Shown here in pieces: positions 7,247 through 13,933 of a stretch of DNA of 64,000 bases (its first letter is position 1; each line of letters starts with the position of its first letter). Below the pieces are notes generated by a model that ran no database searches, was not told the DNA's origin, and saw only the letters and a list, made by a program, of their open reading frames with translations. Position numbers and translations under genes: made by a program. Source of the DNA: Methanolobus bombayensis (GTDB taxonomy: Archaea; Halobacteriota; Methanosarcinia; Methanosarcinales; Methanosarcinaceae); the NCBI RefSeq assembly GCF_017873415.1, contig NZ_JAGGKD010000005.1, positions 62,001 to 126,000 of the forward strand, written 5' to 3'.

Positions 7247-7420
7247 GTATTGCACATAGTTCTTTGGTTTTATATTTGTCGATTATGTGATAGTTTGATT
7301 CTTGGATTTTCTATGTTTATATTTATTGCAAATCAACATGCTCTGACATATGCTAACACGCAACACTCTTCCAGATATCTTTATTAATAATCATTAAGTA
7401 TGGGCTAACAGGAGATTAAC

Positions 7421-9250
7421 ATGAGCACACGCGAGTACATGCTGGGAAACGTTGCAATTGCACGCGGTATCGTGGAAGGAGGCGGACAGGTAATATCCGG
7501 TTATCCCGGAACACCTTCCTCTGAGGTCATCGGTACACTGGCAGGAATGAAGGAAAGAGACTTTTACGTAGAGTGGTCGGTCAATGAGAAAGTTGCCCTT
7601 GAAGTAGCAGCCGGAGCTGCAATGACTGGTGTGCGTTCAGTAGCAACCATGAAACACGTCGGTTTAAACGTAGCAGCAGACCCGTTACTCACACTTGCCT
7701 ACACAGGTGTCAAAGGCAGCATGATAATAATCGTAGCAGACGACCCGTCATGTCACTCATCACAGAATGAGCAGGACACCCGCAGGTACTCACAATTCTC
7801 ACTCATACCATGTCTTGACCCTTCCACACCACAGGAAGCCAAGGATATGATCCCCTACGCATTTGAATTTTCAAACAAGGTTCAGATGCCTATTATCTTC
7901 AGACCTACAACCCGTATCTCACATGGAAAATCCGACATAGAACTTGGACCGGTAGAAGAAACAAGACCTGCAGCAGAGTTTGTAAAGGAACTGGAACGCT
8001 GGGTCATGGTCCCAAAGAATGCAAGGATACAGCACCCTCACCTTCTTGAGATTCAGAAAACCATGCAGGAAGAACTTGAGAACTCACCATGGAACTCTCT
8101 TGAACTCGCAGATGGCGCAAAGGTCGGAGTCATAGCATCAGGCATTGCTTCAGTCTATGCAAAAGAAGCTGTCATCAAACAGGGAATCAATGCTTCATTC
8201 CTGAAGATCGGAACCTGTCCTCTTCCAGAAAATAAGATTCGCACCCTCATGGAGAATACAGAGAAGATAATCATCTTCGAGGAAATGGAGCCAGTAGTTG
8301 AGGAACAGGTAAGGATAATCGCACAGGAAACCGGCTCAAGCGTAGAAATAATCGGAAAGCTCCAGGGCCCGGTGCCAAGAATCTACGAACTGAACACCGA
8401 TATCTGTGCAGATGTTCTTGCAGAGGTCCTTGAACTTGAAAGACCGGATGTCCCGGCAGAAGTTGCAGAGGACTTCGATTACGACAGATGCAGGATCGAC
8501 CTTCCAATGCGTCCTCCTGTCATGTGTCCGGGATGTTCCCACAGGGCAAGTTTCCATGTCATGAAAAAGGTCTACGGCAAGGATGCTATCTTCCCAAGTG
8601 ATATCGGTTGTTACACACTGGGTATCCAGAGCGGCACAGTTGACACAACACTCTGTATGGGTGGGAGCATAACCGTAGCAAGTGGAATGTATCAGGCAGG
8701 AGAGAAAAAACCTATCTGCTGCTCTATCGGGGATTCGACATTCTTCCATACGGGAGTAAATGGCCTGCTTAATTCTATCTATAATAATGCGGACATAACA
8801 GTAACTATAGTAGACAATCGCACAACAGCAATGACCGGTCACCAGCCAAATCCCGGAATGGGCAAGCTTGCAACAGGTGAGCCAACCGTTGAAGTTTCTC
8901 TTGAGGAGTTATGTAAGAGCATGGGTGCCGGCTTTGTTGAAACAGTTGATCCTTATGATCTTGAAAAGACAGAAGAGGTCTTTAAAAGGGCAAAGGAATA
9001 TGAGGGAACATCGGTCGTTATCACGAGGCAGTTCTGCGTCATTGATGCAAAACGTTCCGGTATTCGCAGGAAACCATTTACAATCGATGCTGAGGAATGT
9101 GTAGGGTGCAAACTGTGTGTGAATCTTGGTTGTCCTGCAATTGAGTTTGACACTACTACAAAGAAAGCATCTATCAATGCAATGTGCACAGGCTGTGGAG
9201 TATGTGCAGCCCTGTGTAAGTTTGATGCCATCACGGAGGTGAAGAAATGA
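7421..9250 (+). CDS. iorA: Indolepyruvate ferredoxin oxidoreductase, alpha subunit
   Basis: Large subunit of the enzyme that oxidatively decarboxylates aryl-pyruvates (from Trp, Phe, Tyr) to aryl-acetyl-CoA, or in methanogens runs in reverse to make aromatic amino acids from aryl acids, using ferredoxin. The 609 residues include an N-terminal pyrimidine-binding domain (SGYPGTPSSEV), a thiamine-PP domain beginning at MCPGCSHR near residue 367 with GDSTFFHTG, and two C-terminal 4Fe-4S motifs: CVGCKLCVNLGC (~560-571) and CTGCGVCAALC (~589-599). It starts at an ATG with AGGAG upstream and overlaps iorB by four bases (ATGA). Confidence 0.95.
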   Translation: MSTREYMLGNVAIARGIVEGGGQVISGYPGTPSSEVIGTLAGMKERDFYVEWSVNEKVALEVAAGAAMTGVRSVATMKHVGLNVAADPLLTLAYTGVKGSMIIIVADDPSCHSSQNEQDTRRYSQFSLIPCLDPSTPQEAKDMIPYAFEFSNKVQMPIIFRPTTRISHGKSDIELGPVEETRPAAEFVKELERWVMVPKNARIQHPHLLEIQKTMQEELENSPWNSLELADGAKVGVIASGIASVYAKEAVIKQGINASFLKIGTCPLPENKIRTLMENTEKIIIFEEMEPVVEEQVRIIAQETGSSVEIIGKLQGPVPRIYELNTDICADVLAEVLELERPDVPAEVAEDFDYDRCRIDLPMRPPVMCPGCSHRASFHVMKKVYGKDAIFPSDIGCYTLGIQSGTVDTTLCMGGSITVASGMYQAGEKKPICCSIGDSTFFHTGVNGLLNSIYNNADITVTIVDNRTTAMTGHQPNPGMGKLATGEPTVEVSLEELCKSMGAGFVETVDPYDLEKTEEVFKRAKEYEGTSVVITRQFCVIDAKRSGIRRKPFTIDAEECVGCKLCVNLGCPAIEFDTTTKKASINAMCTGCGVCAALCKFDAITEVKK

Positions 9251-10093: not shown

Positions 10094-11284
10094 ATGATTA
10101 ACAAAAGTAAATTGTATAAGCTATCGGCAGATATGTTCTTGGTAGCTATTTTATGTATAGTCACTATCTCAATGGTGGGGATGGTAAGCGCAAATGGTGT
10201 TATAGCAGAACCAACGGTTGAAAAAACAGCATCACCAACAAATATCAACGTTGCTGGTAGCGGTACTAATGATATTACCACCGTAACTATAGAAGTAACA
10301 GGTGCAGGCAGTGCCACTACAACATCTGTTCCTATGGATGTTATATTTGCTATAGACAGTTCTGGAAGTATGGGTTCAAACGATCCGGCTGAAGATCGTT
10401 TAACTGCAGCAAAAGAGTTTGTAGATAAGATGGACTCGACAAAGGATACAGCAGGTGTTGTTAGCTGGGACAGTAATATAGACTTTTTTGAGTCATTGAG
10501 TGATGATTTCTCTCATATCAAGGATAGGATAGATGATGTTGACAGTTCAGGTGGAACAAATCTCGATGTGGGTTTAACTAAATCAATAGAATTGTTAGAT
10601 TCTAATCCAAGATCAGGAGCATCTGCAGAAGTTATTATTTTCCTTAGTGATGGACAAGGTACATATTATCATAGTACTGCACAAGATGCTGCTGACAAAG
10701 GATACACTATTTATAGCATAGGATTGGGAGGTTCCGCTCCTGATGCAGATTTAGTAGATATGGCTAATACTACTGGTGGGAAATTCTATTCATCACCAAC
10801 TGCAGAAAACCTTGATGATATTTATCAGGACATCTATTCTGAAATAGCTGCTTCTACAATCCCTTATAATGTAGATGTTGTTGAAATAACTCAGGATTAT
10901 ATTATTGATGAAGGTTCATTTAACATTGTTCCAGATAATATAGTTGAAGACCCCGTCAATGGAACTACAATAATAACCTGGCTCAATATTGGTGCTATAA
11001 ACGATGCTGATCCTGATATGTCTGCTGATGAAACAGTCACTCTGACTTTCGAAGCAAAATGTGATAGGACTGGAACCAGATTACCTGTTGATGTGGTTCC
11101 TGATGCTAAAGTATATTATGATGACAGTGAAGGAACTGATGCAGGATCTGTAAATATTCCACAGGCATACATTACAGTCGGTGAAAATATCCCTCCAAAT
11201 GAGGAAATTCCTGAGTTTCCAACAGTCGCAATACCAATGATTGCAATTATTGGATTGGCATTTATATTCAGTAAGAGGGAGTAA
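10094..11284 (+). CDS. Secreted von Willebrand factor A domain protein with PEF-CTERM sorting tail
   Basis: A 396-residue predicted surface protein. Residues ~12-33 form a hydrophobic signal peptide ending near VSANG. A VWA domain follows with an intact MIDAS motif, D88-S90-S92 in DSSGSMG, plus downstream SSGGTNLD and FLSDGQ. A C-terminal beta-rich region is followed by IPEFPTV (PEF at 373-375), a hydrophobic segment and a short basic end. This layout matches PEF-CTERM signals, which are thought to be processed by an archaeosortase and linked to the envelope lipid. The function is probably adhesion or cell-surface interaction; the ligand is unknown. GTGGAG at 10078-10083 is the likely ribosome binding site. 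It is monocistronic, with a terminator at its stop codon. Confidence 0.85.
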   Translation: MINKSKLYKLSADMFLVAILCIVTISMVGMVSANGVIAEPTVEKTASPTNINVAGSGTNDITTVTIEVTGAGSATTTSVPMDVIFAIDSSGSMGSNDPAEDRLTAAKEFVDKMDSTKDTAGVVSWDSNIDFFESLSDDFSHIKDRIDDVDSSGGTNLDVGLTKSIELLDSNPRSGASAEVIIFLSDGQGTYYHSTAQDAADKGYTIYSIGLGGSAPDADLVDMANTTGGKFYSSPTAENLDDIYQDIYSEIAASTIPYNVDVVEITQDYIIDEGSFNIVPDNIVEDPVNGTTIITWLNIGAINDADPDMSADETVTLTFEAKCDRTGTRLPVDVVPDAKVYYDDSEGTDAGSVNIPQAYITVGENIPPNEEIPEFPTVAIPMIAIIGLAFIFSKRE

Positions 11285-11440: not shown

Positions 11441-11458
11441 CAAAGTCTTTAAATTATA
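11441..11458 (+). promoter_or_regulatory. Candidate BRE/TATA promoter of the 11.5-13.9 kb cassette
   Basis: CAAAGTC followed by TTTAAATTATA (11448-11458) resembles an archaeal BRE plus TATA box. It is placed to start transcription near 11480, about 20 bases before the first gene of the cassette and just ahead of its GGAGGG ribosome binding site (11490-11495). Confidence 0.5.
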
Positions 11459-11501
11459 TTGCCGTATATTATATTGCACCATAAATTTTGGAGGGTAAAA
11501 T

Positions 11502-12116
11502 ATGGTATCAGTTGGTCAAAAACTATTGGATGTTCCTTTTGGGGACATGATAAAAGAAATGGCATTTGCCATTGCAGAGGGACAAACAGCACTTGATATG
11601 AACTCTATCAATGTTGCACAGGCCCTTGCAGAAACAGAACTTGAGGCTGGAAGTGTAATTCTCTACATAGAAGAAACAGTGGATGAGGATGGTAACGTAA
11701 CTGCAAGTAATGTAGTTACAAATGATCAACCAATGTCCCTGCTAACCTATGGTCTTGAGCCACGTTTTTATGAGTTTACTGAATCTATCATTGAAGTAAA
11801 AATGACAATCTCAATGAAGAGGGAATACTCAACTGAAAGAAAATATGGCAGAGAATTCAACTTTACCAATGAGTCCAAGATAAAGGGAAGCTATAAATCA
11901 GGTGGTCTTGCAGGCCTTCTTTTTGGAAAATCAAAGGTAAGTTATGAGAACACTACTAATGTTGCATACACTTCAACTTATGATGCAACATATAAGTCAA
12001 AGTTCACCTTCAATGAATCAGGAACAAGTCTTCTGAGGACCACCTTGAAGCCAGTACCTGCTCCGGAAAAAGCTGTTCCGACCGTCAGGGTCAAAGAGAG
12101 CGGCTCTTCAGAGTAA
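11502..12116 (+). CDS. Uncharacterised protein A of PASTA cassette (DUF2589-like layout)
   Basis: A 204-residue protein I cannot assign to a named family with confidence. It has an N-terminal amphipathic helix region (PFGDMIKEMAFAIAEG), then PLEPRF-like hydrophobic strands (LLTYGLEPRFYEF) leading into SIIEVKMTISMKRE, a serine/glycine/lysine-rich region (SGGLAGLLFGKSKVS) and repeated short beta-type stretches with a Pro/Lys-rich tail. There is no signal peptide or membrane segment, so it is probably cytoplasmic. The helix-then-beta layout recalls bacterial DUF2589 proteins (inference, unverified). It shares the EVKMTISM-type motif with the next two genes. It has a strong ribosome binding site, GGAGGG, six bases upstream. 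Confidence 0.7.
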   Translation: MVSVGQKLLDVPFGDMIKEMAFAIAEGQTALDMNSINVAQALAETELEAGSVILYIEETVDEDGNVTASNVVTNDQPMSLLTYGLEPRFYEFTESIIEVKMTISMKREYSTERKYGREFNFTNESKIKGSYKSGGLAGLLFGKSKVSYENTTNVAYTSTYDATYKSKFTFNESGTSLLRTTLKPVPAPEKAVPTVRVKESGSSE

Positions 12117-12130
12117 GGTAGATATTTTAT

Positions 12131-12165
12131 ATCAATGCAGAATTCCTGCATTGATCATTTATTTT
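12131..12165 (+). promoter_or_regulatory. Perfect 10-bp hairpin between cassette genes 1 and 2
   Basis: ATCAATGCAG (12131-12140), loop AATTC and CTGCATTGAT (12146-12155) pair perfectly, followed by a T-rich stretch. It sits in the only sizeable gap (71 bases) of the cassette. It may be a partial terminator or an RNA-processing/stability element that sets a different dose for the first gene. Confidence 0.6.
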
Positions 12166-12187
12166 TCAAAATAATCAGGAGGTATAT

Positions 12188-12595
12188 ATGCCATCCATTA
12201 GTAGCAAAAGTATAGAAGAGGTTCTTGTTAGTCCGCTCTCAACGATTCTTGCTGAAATGGGTAAATCAATTGCTCAGACCCAAAAAGCAATGGACCGTAA
12301 CTCAATTGATACTCAGATCGAGTTATCCAGCGATGAAGCACTTAAAGATTACAATCTGGAAGCTACATGGTATCACATGCCTGAAGTGGACATTGAACTC
12401 AAGATGGCTCTTTCCATGTCATATGAAGAAGAAAAAGATTCAAAAGGTCGTGTTCGCGGATATAAACGTGTTCTTAAAGCAGCACCATTGAATGCATCTT
12501 ATAAATCACTTAACTCCTATGATGTAGAAGGTTCAAGTGTTCTGAAAACTAAAATAGTATCTGTACCACCATCCTACAGATCAGTTGAAGAGTAA
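12188..12595 (+). CDS. Uncharacterised protein B of PASTA cassette (short paralogue-like partner)
   Basis: A 135-residue protein of unknown function. It begins with a helix-forming segment (SPLSTILAEMGKSIAQTQ) comparable in position and character to the N-terminus of protein A. It then has YHMPEVDIELKMALSMSYEE, which matches the strand motif of protein A (IIEVKMTISMKRE), and ends in LNASYKSLNSYDVEG and a short beta/Pro tail. It lacks the longer insert of protein A. No signal peptide or membrane segment is visible. AGGAGG lies about six bases before the ATG. It is followed after 16 bases by the PASTA gene. I read A and B as diverged members of one family that may form a complex (inference). 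Confidence 0.7.
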   Translation: MPSISSKSIEEVLVSPLSTILAEMGKSIAQTQKAMDRNSIDTQIELSSDEALKDYNLEATWYHMPEVDIELKMALSMSYEEEKDSKGRVRGYKRVLKAAPLNASYKSLNSYDVEGSSVLKTKIVSVPPSYRSVEE

Positions 12596-12611
12596 TATCC
12601 GGGGAATTGTA

Positions 12612-13682
12612 ATGGTTGATGTTAATGAATTAAAACAGAACCTGGAAAAGTTGAATAGAGCAACTACGGCTGCATCAAAAAGAAAAAGTTACCTTCTCGC
12701 TGAAAGAAGTGTCGAAGCCATTGAATCTGAATTTGATGTTATTAATAAAGAGCTTGTTTCAAAAACGGATGAACTTGTCCAGCTCAGAAAAGAAAATCTA
12801 TCTTTAAAACAGGACTATAATATACTTGAGAGTCGTGTCAAAGATCTAATTAATGAAAAACTGGAAATTGAGAAGAAGCTTGAGGTACTCTCTCGTAGCA
12901 GATCCGAATTATCCTCGACAAATCTTGTAAAAGCATTCAGTGATTCTCTTGATGAAATGGAATCTTCTCTTAAAAGTGAATCTTCAAGAGTAGAGTACAG
13001 TGTCAGCTCCATGAATATTAAACTGAAGACCAACATTGCAATGGAAGGTAATGATCTACGTTTCCAGTTGCCTAAAGCTGATGATCTGATTCCGGCAAAT
13101 AATCTGAGTGAGGTGCAATTCACTATCAGCTCCTCATCAAAAGAACCTGTATTATCAAGTCTTGTTGATGTGCCTGATGTAGTTGGCTTTGAACTTGATA
13201 ATGCTCTTGCTGCTATTAAGGAAGCTGGTTTTAATCAGGGTGAAATCATAGAAAAGGAAAGCAAGTTTGTACAGGGTACTGTACTTTCACAGATTCCATC
13301 CGGCAGTTCTGTTGCAAAGTCCGGTGATGCTGTAGACCTTGTAATTTCAAAGATAACCTCTGTTGAAGTTCCGGATATGACTGGCAATACTCTTGCAGTT
13401 GCTAAAAAATCTCTTATTGATTCTGGTTTGTCTCTGGGTAAGGTAACTGAAGAGGCAAATTCTTTGAAAGCAGGTACTGTTGTAAGTCAGTCTGTTGAAC
13501 CCGGTACATATGTGGATATAGGGGATGCTATAGATCTTGTTGTTGCAAGTTCGAAAACAGAGTTTGCTGCAGTTTCCGGTAGACCGTTAGCCAATGAAGA
13601 CGTTTCCAGATTTGCTTCTAGGTCAGTCCTAAGGAATGTTCCAAGGATTAGTTCTACAAGAAAATCACTTTCAAGGAAGTAG
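12612..13682 (+). CDS. Coiled-coil protein with two C-terminal PASTA domains, no export signal
   Basis: A 356-residue protein. Residues ~4-95 are a long charged coiled coil (heptad-like Leu/Ile/Glu/Lys). Residues ~125-170 hold a beta-type segment, SSMNIKLKTNIAMEGN, resembling the motif of proteins A and B. Two PASTA domains follow at ~186-247 (starting VPDVVGFELDNALAAIKEAG, with FVQGTVLSQIPSGS) and ~252-315 (VEVPDMTGNTLAVAKKSL, with LKAGTVVSQSVEPG). A basic Ser/Arg-rich tail ends it. PASTA domains usually sit outside the cell on bacterial kinases and penicillin-binding proteins. Here there is no signal peptide or membrane helix. I start at the ATG at 12612 after GGGG; an in-frame start at 12585 would overlap the previous gene. 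Confidence 0.8.
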   Translation: MVDVNELKQNLEKLNRATTAASKRKSYLLAERSVEAIESEFDVINKELVSKTDELVQLRKENLSLKQDYNILESRVKDLINEKLEIEKKLEVLSRSRSELSSTNLVKAFSDSLDEMESSLKSESSRVEYSVSSMNIKLKTNIAMEGNDLRFQLPKADDLIPANNLSEVQFTISSSSKEPVLSSLVDVPDVVGFELDNALAAIKEAGFNQGEIIEKESKFVQGTVLSQIPSGSSVAKSGDAVDLVISKITSVEVPDMTGNTLAVAKKSLIDSGLSLGKVTEEANSLKAGTVVSQSVEPGTYVDIGDAIDLVVASSKTEFAAVSGRPLANEDVSRFASRSVLRNVPRISSTRKSLSRK

Positions 13683-13687
13683 TTGAA

Positions 13688-13933
13688 ATGGCTGTTGAAA
13701 CACATCTTGTAAGGATTGCAGATAATGCAACTCCTTCACAGGTCGAAGGTATCCTTAAAGCCCTTGTAGGAATTGGTGGTCGCGTTGATGTTGTTGCAAA
13801 CAAGAGTATAATTGCCACATTTGATGGTGATTATTCTGAAGTTATAAAAAGCAAATCTGGTGTTCAACTTGTTGGCGGTGTGAATTTCAGGGGAAGGACT
13901 GTAAGGAAAGTTGTAAAAAAAGCTTCACAATAA
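13688..13933 (+). CDS. 81-residue protein of PASTA cassette, possible peptidase-inhibitor-I9-like fold
   Basis: A small soluble protein with no recognised name. The pattern HLVRIADNATPSQVEGILKA ... VDVVANKSIIATFDGDYSEV ... GVQLVGGV reads as strand-helix-strand-strand-helix-strand, like the propeptide/inhibitor I9 fold of subtilisin-type proteases (inference from pattern only). A basic C-terminus (RTVRKVVKKASQ) could bind nucleic acid or acidic partners. It starts five bases after the PASTA gene stop, so it is the last gene of the cassette. No protease gene lies nearby, so an inhibitor role has no visible target here. Confidence 0.65.
   Translation: MAVETHLVRIADNATPSQVEGILKALVGIGGRVDVVANKSIIATFDGDYSEVIKSKSGVQLVGGVNFRGRTVRKVVKKASQ

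Follow-up and report, generated by a model that had tools for sequence, protein, structure and literature searches.

The four genes described here, A to D of Methanolobus bombayensis, appear to be an undescribed, conserved, PASTA-bearing branch of a wider DUF2589-like superfamily. We think the chances about even that they form a conserved, operon-like set whose products build a hetero-oligomeric scaffold in the cytosol, in which the coiled-coil protein C displays PASTA arms, and which is related to a bacterial and phage cell-wall module. The genes lie in a stretch of 64,000 nucleotides (the window), to which the coordinates below refer unless another locus is named.

The four-gene cassette

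The features of the cassette are as follows:

11448..11459, + strand: putative TATA-like promoter element TTTAAATTATAT, read from sequence
11502..12116, + strand: gene A, 204 aa; distant relative of DUF2589; helix at the N terminus (13-44), then long beta strands
12188..12595, + strand: gene B, 135 aa; paralogue of A
12612..13682, + strand: gene C, 356 aa; coiled coil, helix, small A/B-like beta domain, two PASTA domains, basic tail
12669..12896, + strand: coiled-coil helix of C, residues 20-95 (AlphaFold model)
12915..13139, + strand: helix plus beta domain of C, residues ~102-176 (AlphaFold model); weakly B-like
13161..13550, + strand: two PASTA domains of C, residues ~184-313 (Pfam PF03793, E 4.5e-25; PknB fold match)
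13614..13679, + strand: basic C-terminal tail of C (...SSTRKSLSRK), low-confidence/disordered in the AlphaFold model
13688..13933, + strand: gene D, 81 aa; small basic protein, pI 10; conserved VxLVGGVxFRxR motif

A preliminary description of this DNA had proposed four co-directional, non-exported open reading frames, and their coordinates, strand, lengths and gaps are all borne out: the genes, of 204, 135, 356 and 81 codons, are all on the + strand and separated by 71, 16 and 5 bases. The TATA-like element that it placed in front of A is also present; TTTAAATTATAT sits 43-54 bases ahead of the A start codon, a position that would suit a candidate archaeal promoter. Its strong ribosome binding sites hold for A (TGGAGGG) and B (CAGGAGG), but the Shine-Dalgarno sequences of C (CCGGGGA) and D (AAGGAAG) are weaker. 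The conserved start of C is the ATG at 12612, which gives 356 amino acids; the longest open reading frame begins at a TTG at 12585. A-D showed neither a signal peptide nor a membrane segment: in 19-residue Kyte-Doolittle windows the maximum mean is 0.96-1.27 in the four proteins versus 2.53 in an exported neighbour. (At 10094-11284 of the window there is a vWA-domain surface protein with a signal segment at its N terminus and a hydrophobic C-terminal stretch that follows PEFP; by eye its tail looks like a PEF-CTERM sorting tail.)

Synonymous changes far outnumber non-synonymous ones between Methanolobus relatives (dN/dS within the genus is about 0.05 for A, 0.06-0.08 for B, 0.15 for C and 0.15-0.22 for D), so all four are real, constrained genes. 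This purifying selection, together with a gene order that is widely conserved (below), means that the cassette is not a chance arrangement.

Relationship of A and B to DUF2589

Scans of A-D with Pfam, NCBIfam, PHROGs and PADLOC gave nothing beyond PASTA and coiled-coil matches. The suggestion that A and B are related is confirmed by profile-profile comparison (hhalign probability 99.5%, E 5e-22). A is not matched by any Pfam model, and both A and B fall below the curated Pfam cut-off of DUF2589 (PF11655), so we do not file the cassette as a DUF2589 member; A and B do form the tandem paralogous pair that is a membership feature of DUF2589 cassettes. The A profile aligns with that of DUF2589 over 175-182 columns with a probability of 95-98% (hhalign, E 2e-8 to 3.5e-12), versus 0.5-3.7% for reversed controls. 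Run against 4081 open reading frames, it matched DUF2589 proteins at E values down to 5e-7, in a hit list from which B proteins and further rows other than DUF2589 with E below 1e-4 had been filtered. These comparisons place A as a distant, full-length relative of DUF2589 at the superfamily level. B gives 58% (E 1e-4) against DUF2589 and 72% (E 3e-5) against the third gene of the Archaeoglobi DUF2589 cassettes, and it too joins the DUF2589-like superfamily, as, more weakly, does the small domain of C.

The AlphaFold model of A, with a long helix followed by long strands, is weak (pLDDT 60), and a fold search with it against the PDB and a viral library returned no reliable match, with one viral protein at E 0.004. 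The invariant residues of A are G, P, Y, E, Q and D, among which there is no obvious catalytic set.

Protein C, its PASTA domains and protein D

C had been described as a coiled-coil protein with PASTA domains, and the models agree: most of the helix at residues 20-95 has a pLDDT of about 90 or higher, and the PASTA region passes the Pfam cut-off with 87.8 bits and matches the PknB PASTA structure with a Z score of 13.2. The beta domain between them gives a marginal match to B (hhalign E 0.009) and 33% (E 4.5e-4) against the third gene of the Archaeoglobi DUF2589 cassettes (A8), a weak but consistent indication that it may be linked to the A/B family.

The idea that the PASTA protein is the core of the cassette did not survive comparison with its relatives. 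PASTA is absent from the C relatives of three loci (L056, L057 and L058) and otherwise occurs in one (L093, L095), two, three or four copies, with 14 in a second C-like gene of L029, whereas the coiled coil and the beta domain persist. PASTA is thus an added module, and the core is the DUF2589-related helix-plus-beta unit of A, B and C. The C-like gene just mentioned encodes about 1,500 residues and lies upstream of A (L029 932-5512; there is another at L030 659-5511). The end of C also varies: HHH_5/DUF4332 domains are found there in several Methanosarcinales and a haloarchaeon-like genome, and a short basic tail in Methanosarcinaceae.

Two possible affinities of D were examined. A resemblance to subtilisin propeptides (inhibitor I9) came from Tk-subtilisin and proteinase K chains at E 1.1-1.5 in one alignment and was not reproduced, and there is no profile similarity (probability 0.6%) to the small gene that follows bacterial DUF2589 pairs. 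The latter, a conserved gene of about 90 residues directly after the pair (L146 9930-10193, L147 9920-10195, L159 7821-8096, L178 6505-6771), has no Pfam match and is not D-like by profile.

Gene order and distribution

A genome-wide scan for relatives gave 38 loci, whose gene order was read by local profile searches together with that of stretches taken later. All 29 sufficiently long Methanosarcinales loci, apart from L041, have the order A-B-C-D with spacings from overlap to less than 200 bases; three further Methanosarcinales loci, outside the 29, stop within the cassette. In L041, a Methanosarcina metagenome-assembled genome (MAG), transposase-like genes at 7325-8535 split B from C, and the C open reading frame lacks its N-terminal part. 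The A-B-C-D order occurs in Methanolobus, Methanosarcina, ANME-2, Methanoperedenaceae, Syntrophoarchaeum and Argoarchaeum, the lineage labels of part of the relatives being deduced from protein content. Beyond these, the order is A-A-B-C-D in two haloarchaea-like loci (L092 and L093); in L094 a diverged A/B paralogue stands between A and B, ahead of C and D; and the Archaeoglobi-like L095 has A-B-C with no D seen. Several bacterial loci, L099 and L052 have D-A-B-C or D-A-A-B-C-C, and families with D-A-B-C come from several bacterial lineages and one more archaeon. Bacterial L057 and L058 have B-C-A with a short C, and a Sphaerotilus plasmid carries D, A, A', one more gene and a C-like gene, all annotated as hypothetical. 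Some cassettes of the A-B-C-D and D-A-B-C orders show short gaps and others overlapping stop and start codons. The proposal of an undescribed multi-gene system is supported: the linkage is conserved in many genera, archaeal as well as bacterial.

The distribution is nevertheless patchy: the cassette is present in 28 of the 49 good genomes among 60 relatives, in 24 of 247 genomes of the phylum, and in 6 of the 247 from the phylum to which L058 belongs. The nearest relatives by A are from Methanolobus, and a tree of A unites the Methanosarcinales in one group, with the placement of long branches unsure. Fragments of A in three Methanosarcinaceae genomes (G188, G280 and G032; one lies at a contig end) suggest decay of the cassette in some Methanosarcina.

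No conserved flanking partner of the archaeal cassettes was found in the neighbourhoods inspected; what follows the cassette in Methanolobus and some Methanosarcina is only the ribosomal operon. Two other neighbourhoods may be recorded. In L052, a bacterial MAG, a T4 gp19-like tail tube gene (510-941) is directly upstream of D-A-B-C, a single instance; in L114 (6206-8395, 12086-14845) and L054, by eye, a glycosyltransferase ends in a fused D-like sequence, and downstream of the cassette there is a GH5-like gene.

DUF2589 relatives and murein hydrolases

In Archaeoglobi the DUF2589 genes come in tandem pairs, with a third, B-like gene behind them. Three Archaeoglobi-like loci (L140, L142 and L144) have two DUF2589 genes and a B-like gene, and the second DUF2589 gene of L140 appears broken. 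In the literature searched, no function or system is described for DUF2589; its sole mention reports that the DUF2589-related Archaeoglobus fulgidus genes AF0414-AF0417 are up-regulated on lactate (PMC3949148).

Among 22 bacterial loci with DUF2589-like or A-type cassettes (loci other than phage contigs, including a 4-kb "Bacteriophage sp." record), ten have a murein hydrolase within about 3 kb, on the same strand in nine of the ten; since the hydrolase queries were drawn from these same neighbourhoods, and other hydrolase families would be missed, this count is descriptive and not an unbiased rate. The enzymes include Phage_lysozyme (1.3e-42), N-acetylmuramidase (1.9e-66), PG_binding_1 with M15 peptidase, MltA, MltF (two Vibrio plasmids) and one more muramidase, with a PG-binding muramidase and two PG-binding endolysin-like genes recognized by eye. 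That several different hydrolase types occupy the same place suggests a functional link, although several bacterial cassettes have no murein hydrolase nearby. With eight hydrolase queries, none was found near the archaeal cassettes (0 of 19 loci). The two Vibrio plasmids (L147 and L159), which have a DUF2589 pair and an MltF-type lytic transglycosylase, also bear genes annotated as TcdA/TcdB-domain proteins.

On IMG/VR contigs a DUF2589 pair lies shortly upstream of a portal gene, a call backed by matches to annotated Streptomyces phage portals (E 2e-44). In L150-L158 the pair follows a coiled-coil protein with a C-terminal hydrophobic segment and precedes portal and prohead-protease-like genes; most of these contigs that were read have a 195-aa protein in between. 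By eye this protein seemed NlpC/P60-like, but it has no PDB or phage match and was therefore left out of the hydrolase count. In the "Bacteriophage sp." record a helix-plus-beta gene lies between two DUF2589 genes, and a PG-binding muramidase comes next. Neither A-type proteins (searched in phages and viral contigs) nor B (searched in viral contigs) were found.

A possible assembly and its alternatives

A repeated subunit, paralogues in one operon, a coiled coil and the lack of an obvious catalytic set point to a structural assembly rather than an enzyme. We envisage that A, B and the middle domain of C each carry one helix-plus-beta (DUF2589-like) unit and probably pack together as non-identical subunits, that C multimerises through its long coiled coil and would project an adjustable arm of PASTA repeats, followed in some lineages by a helix-hairpin-helix domain or basic tail, and that D may be a small basic accessory. 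A physical A-B-C-D complex is plausible. PASTA domains usually bind cell-wall fragments outside bacterial cells and methanogens of this group have no murein, so here PASTA must bind something else or serve as a spacer. The ancestral bacterial or phage version may have acted with murein hydrolases at the cell envelope, and in archaea without murein the scaffold would have been retained while its PASTA domains bind another ligand. The bacterial assembly probably has to do with cutting of the cell wall, and is perhaps of phage origin.

The cassette might instead be a domesticated phage or lysis-type module. On this view DUF2589 pairs are phage proteins produced together with an endolysin, and the archaeal cassette, now chromosomal, descends from them and may have kept an action on the envelope, such as a part in lysis or particle release. 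The IMG/VR pairs just before the portal gene and after a coiled-coil protein with a hydrophobic end, the junction of DUF2589 genes with a muramidase in the "Bacteriophage sp." record, and the endolysin-type enzymes after DUF2589 genes in several bacteria are all what this would predict. We nevertheless consider it unlikely, as A-type members are missing from the phages and viral contigs searched, the archaeal cassettes have neither hydrolase nor membrane protein, and the Methanosarcinales A tree is largely compatible with vertical descent. Somewhat less probable again is a nucleic-acid-associated scaffold, in which the helix-hairpin-helix domain or basic tail of C and the basic D would bind DNA or RNA and PASTA would form rigid spacers: the HHH_5/DUF4332 domains, the basic tails of Methanosarcinaceae C and the pI of D agree with it, but neither type of C-terminus is universal, helix-hairpin-helix domains also mediate protein contacts, and nucleic-acid genes do not recur nearby. 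We give only a slim chance to a defence or stress cassette with Trypco2-like adaptor proteins. Its patchy distribution (24 of 247 phylum genomes), the plasmid copy, the Methanosarcina fragments and one weak Trypco2 match could be read that way; that match, however, is below the cut-off, PADLOC matches arise only through PASTA or the coiled coil, and no defence genes recur in the neighbourhoods inspected.

The scaffold reading connects an orphan cassette of archaea with a domain of unknown function, predicts that DUF2589 proteins act as multi-subunit assemblies, relates the bacterial members to phages and to hydrolases of the cell wall, and raises the question of what PASTA binds in the cytosol of cells without murein. 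More tentatively, it may be that previously unrecognised multi-gene assemblies of DUF2589-like subunits are common to archaea, bacteria and phages, the bacterial forms working with murein hydrolases and the archaeal form bearing PASTA arms despite the lack of murein.

Comparison with known systems

A-D match no PHROGs structural family, among them the tail tube, sheath and baseplate parts of contractile injection systems. Trypco2 (PF19631) is alike by eye in its short helix followed by beta strands; one A-type protein matched it at E 0.011 (16.3 of 24.2 bits), mostly over the N-terminal helix region; all matches to the family were sub-threshold, and no Trypco2 loci were obtained. Phage lysis and endolysin modules have in common with our cassette that murein hydrolases adjoin its bacterial and phage-like relatives; the archaeal cassette differs from them in having no hydrolase, holin or spanin. 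C shares two genuine PASTA domains with the PknB/PrkC kinases and PBP2x, but unlike the PASTA kinases and PASTA penicillin-binding proteins it has no kinase or transpeptidase domain, membrane segment or export. The DUF2589 cassettes of Archaeoglobi, haloarchaea, bacteria and phages differ in that a PASTA-bearing C and an A-type D were not seen in those inspected; they share with the Methanolobus cassette full-length similarity to the A profile, tandem paralogues, and a third helix-plus-beta gene that resembles B and, weakly, the middle domain of C.
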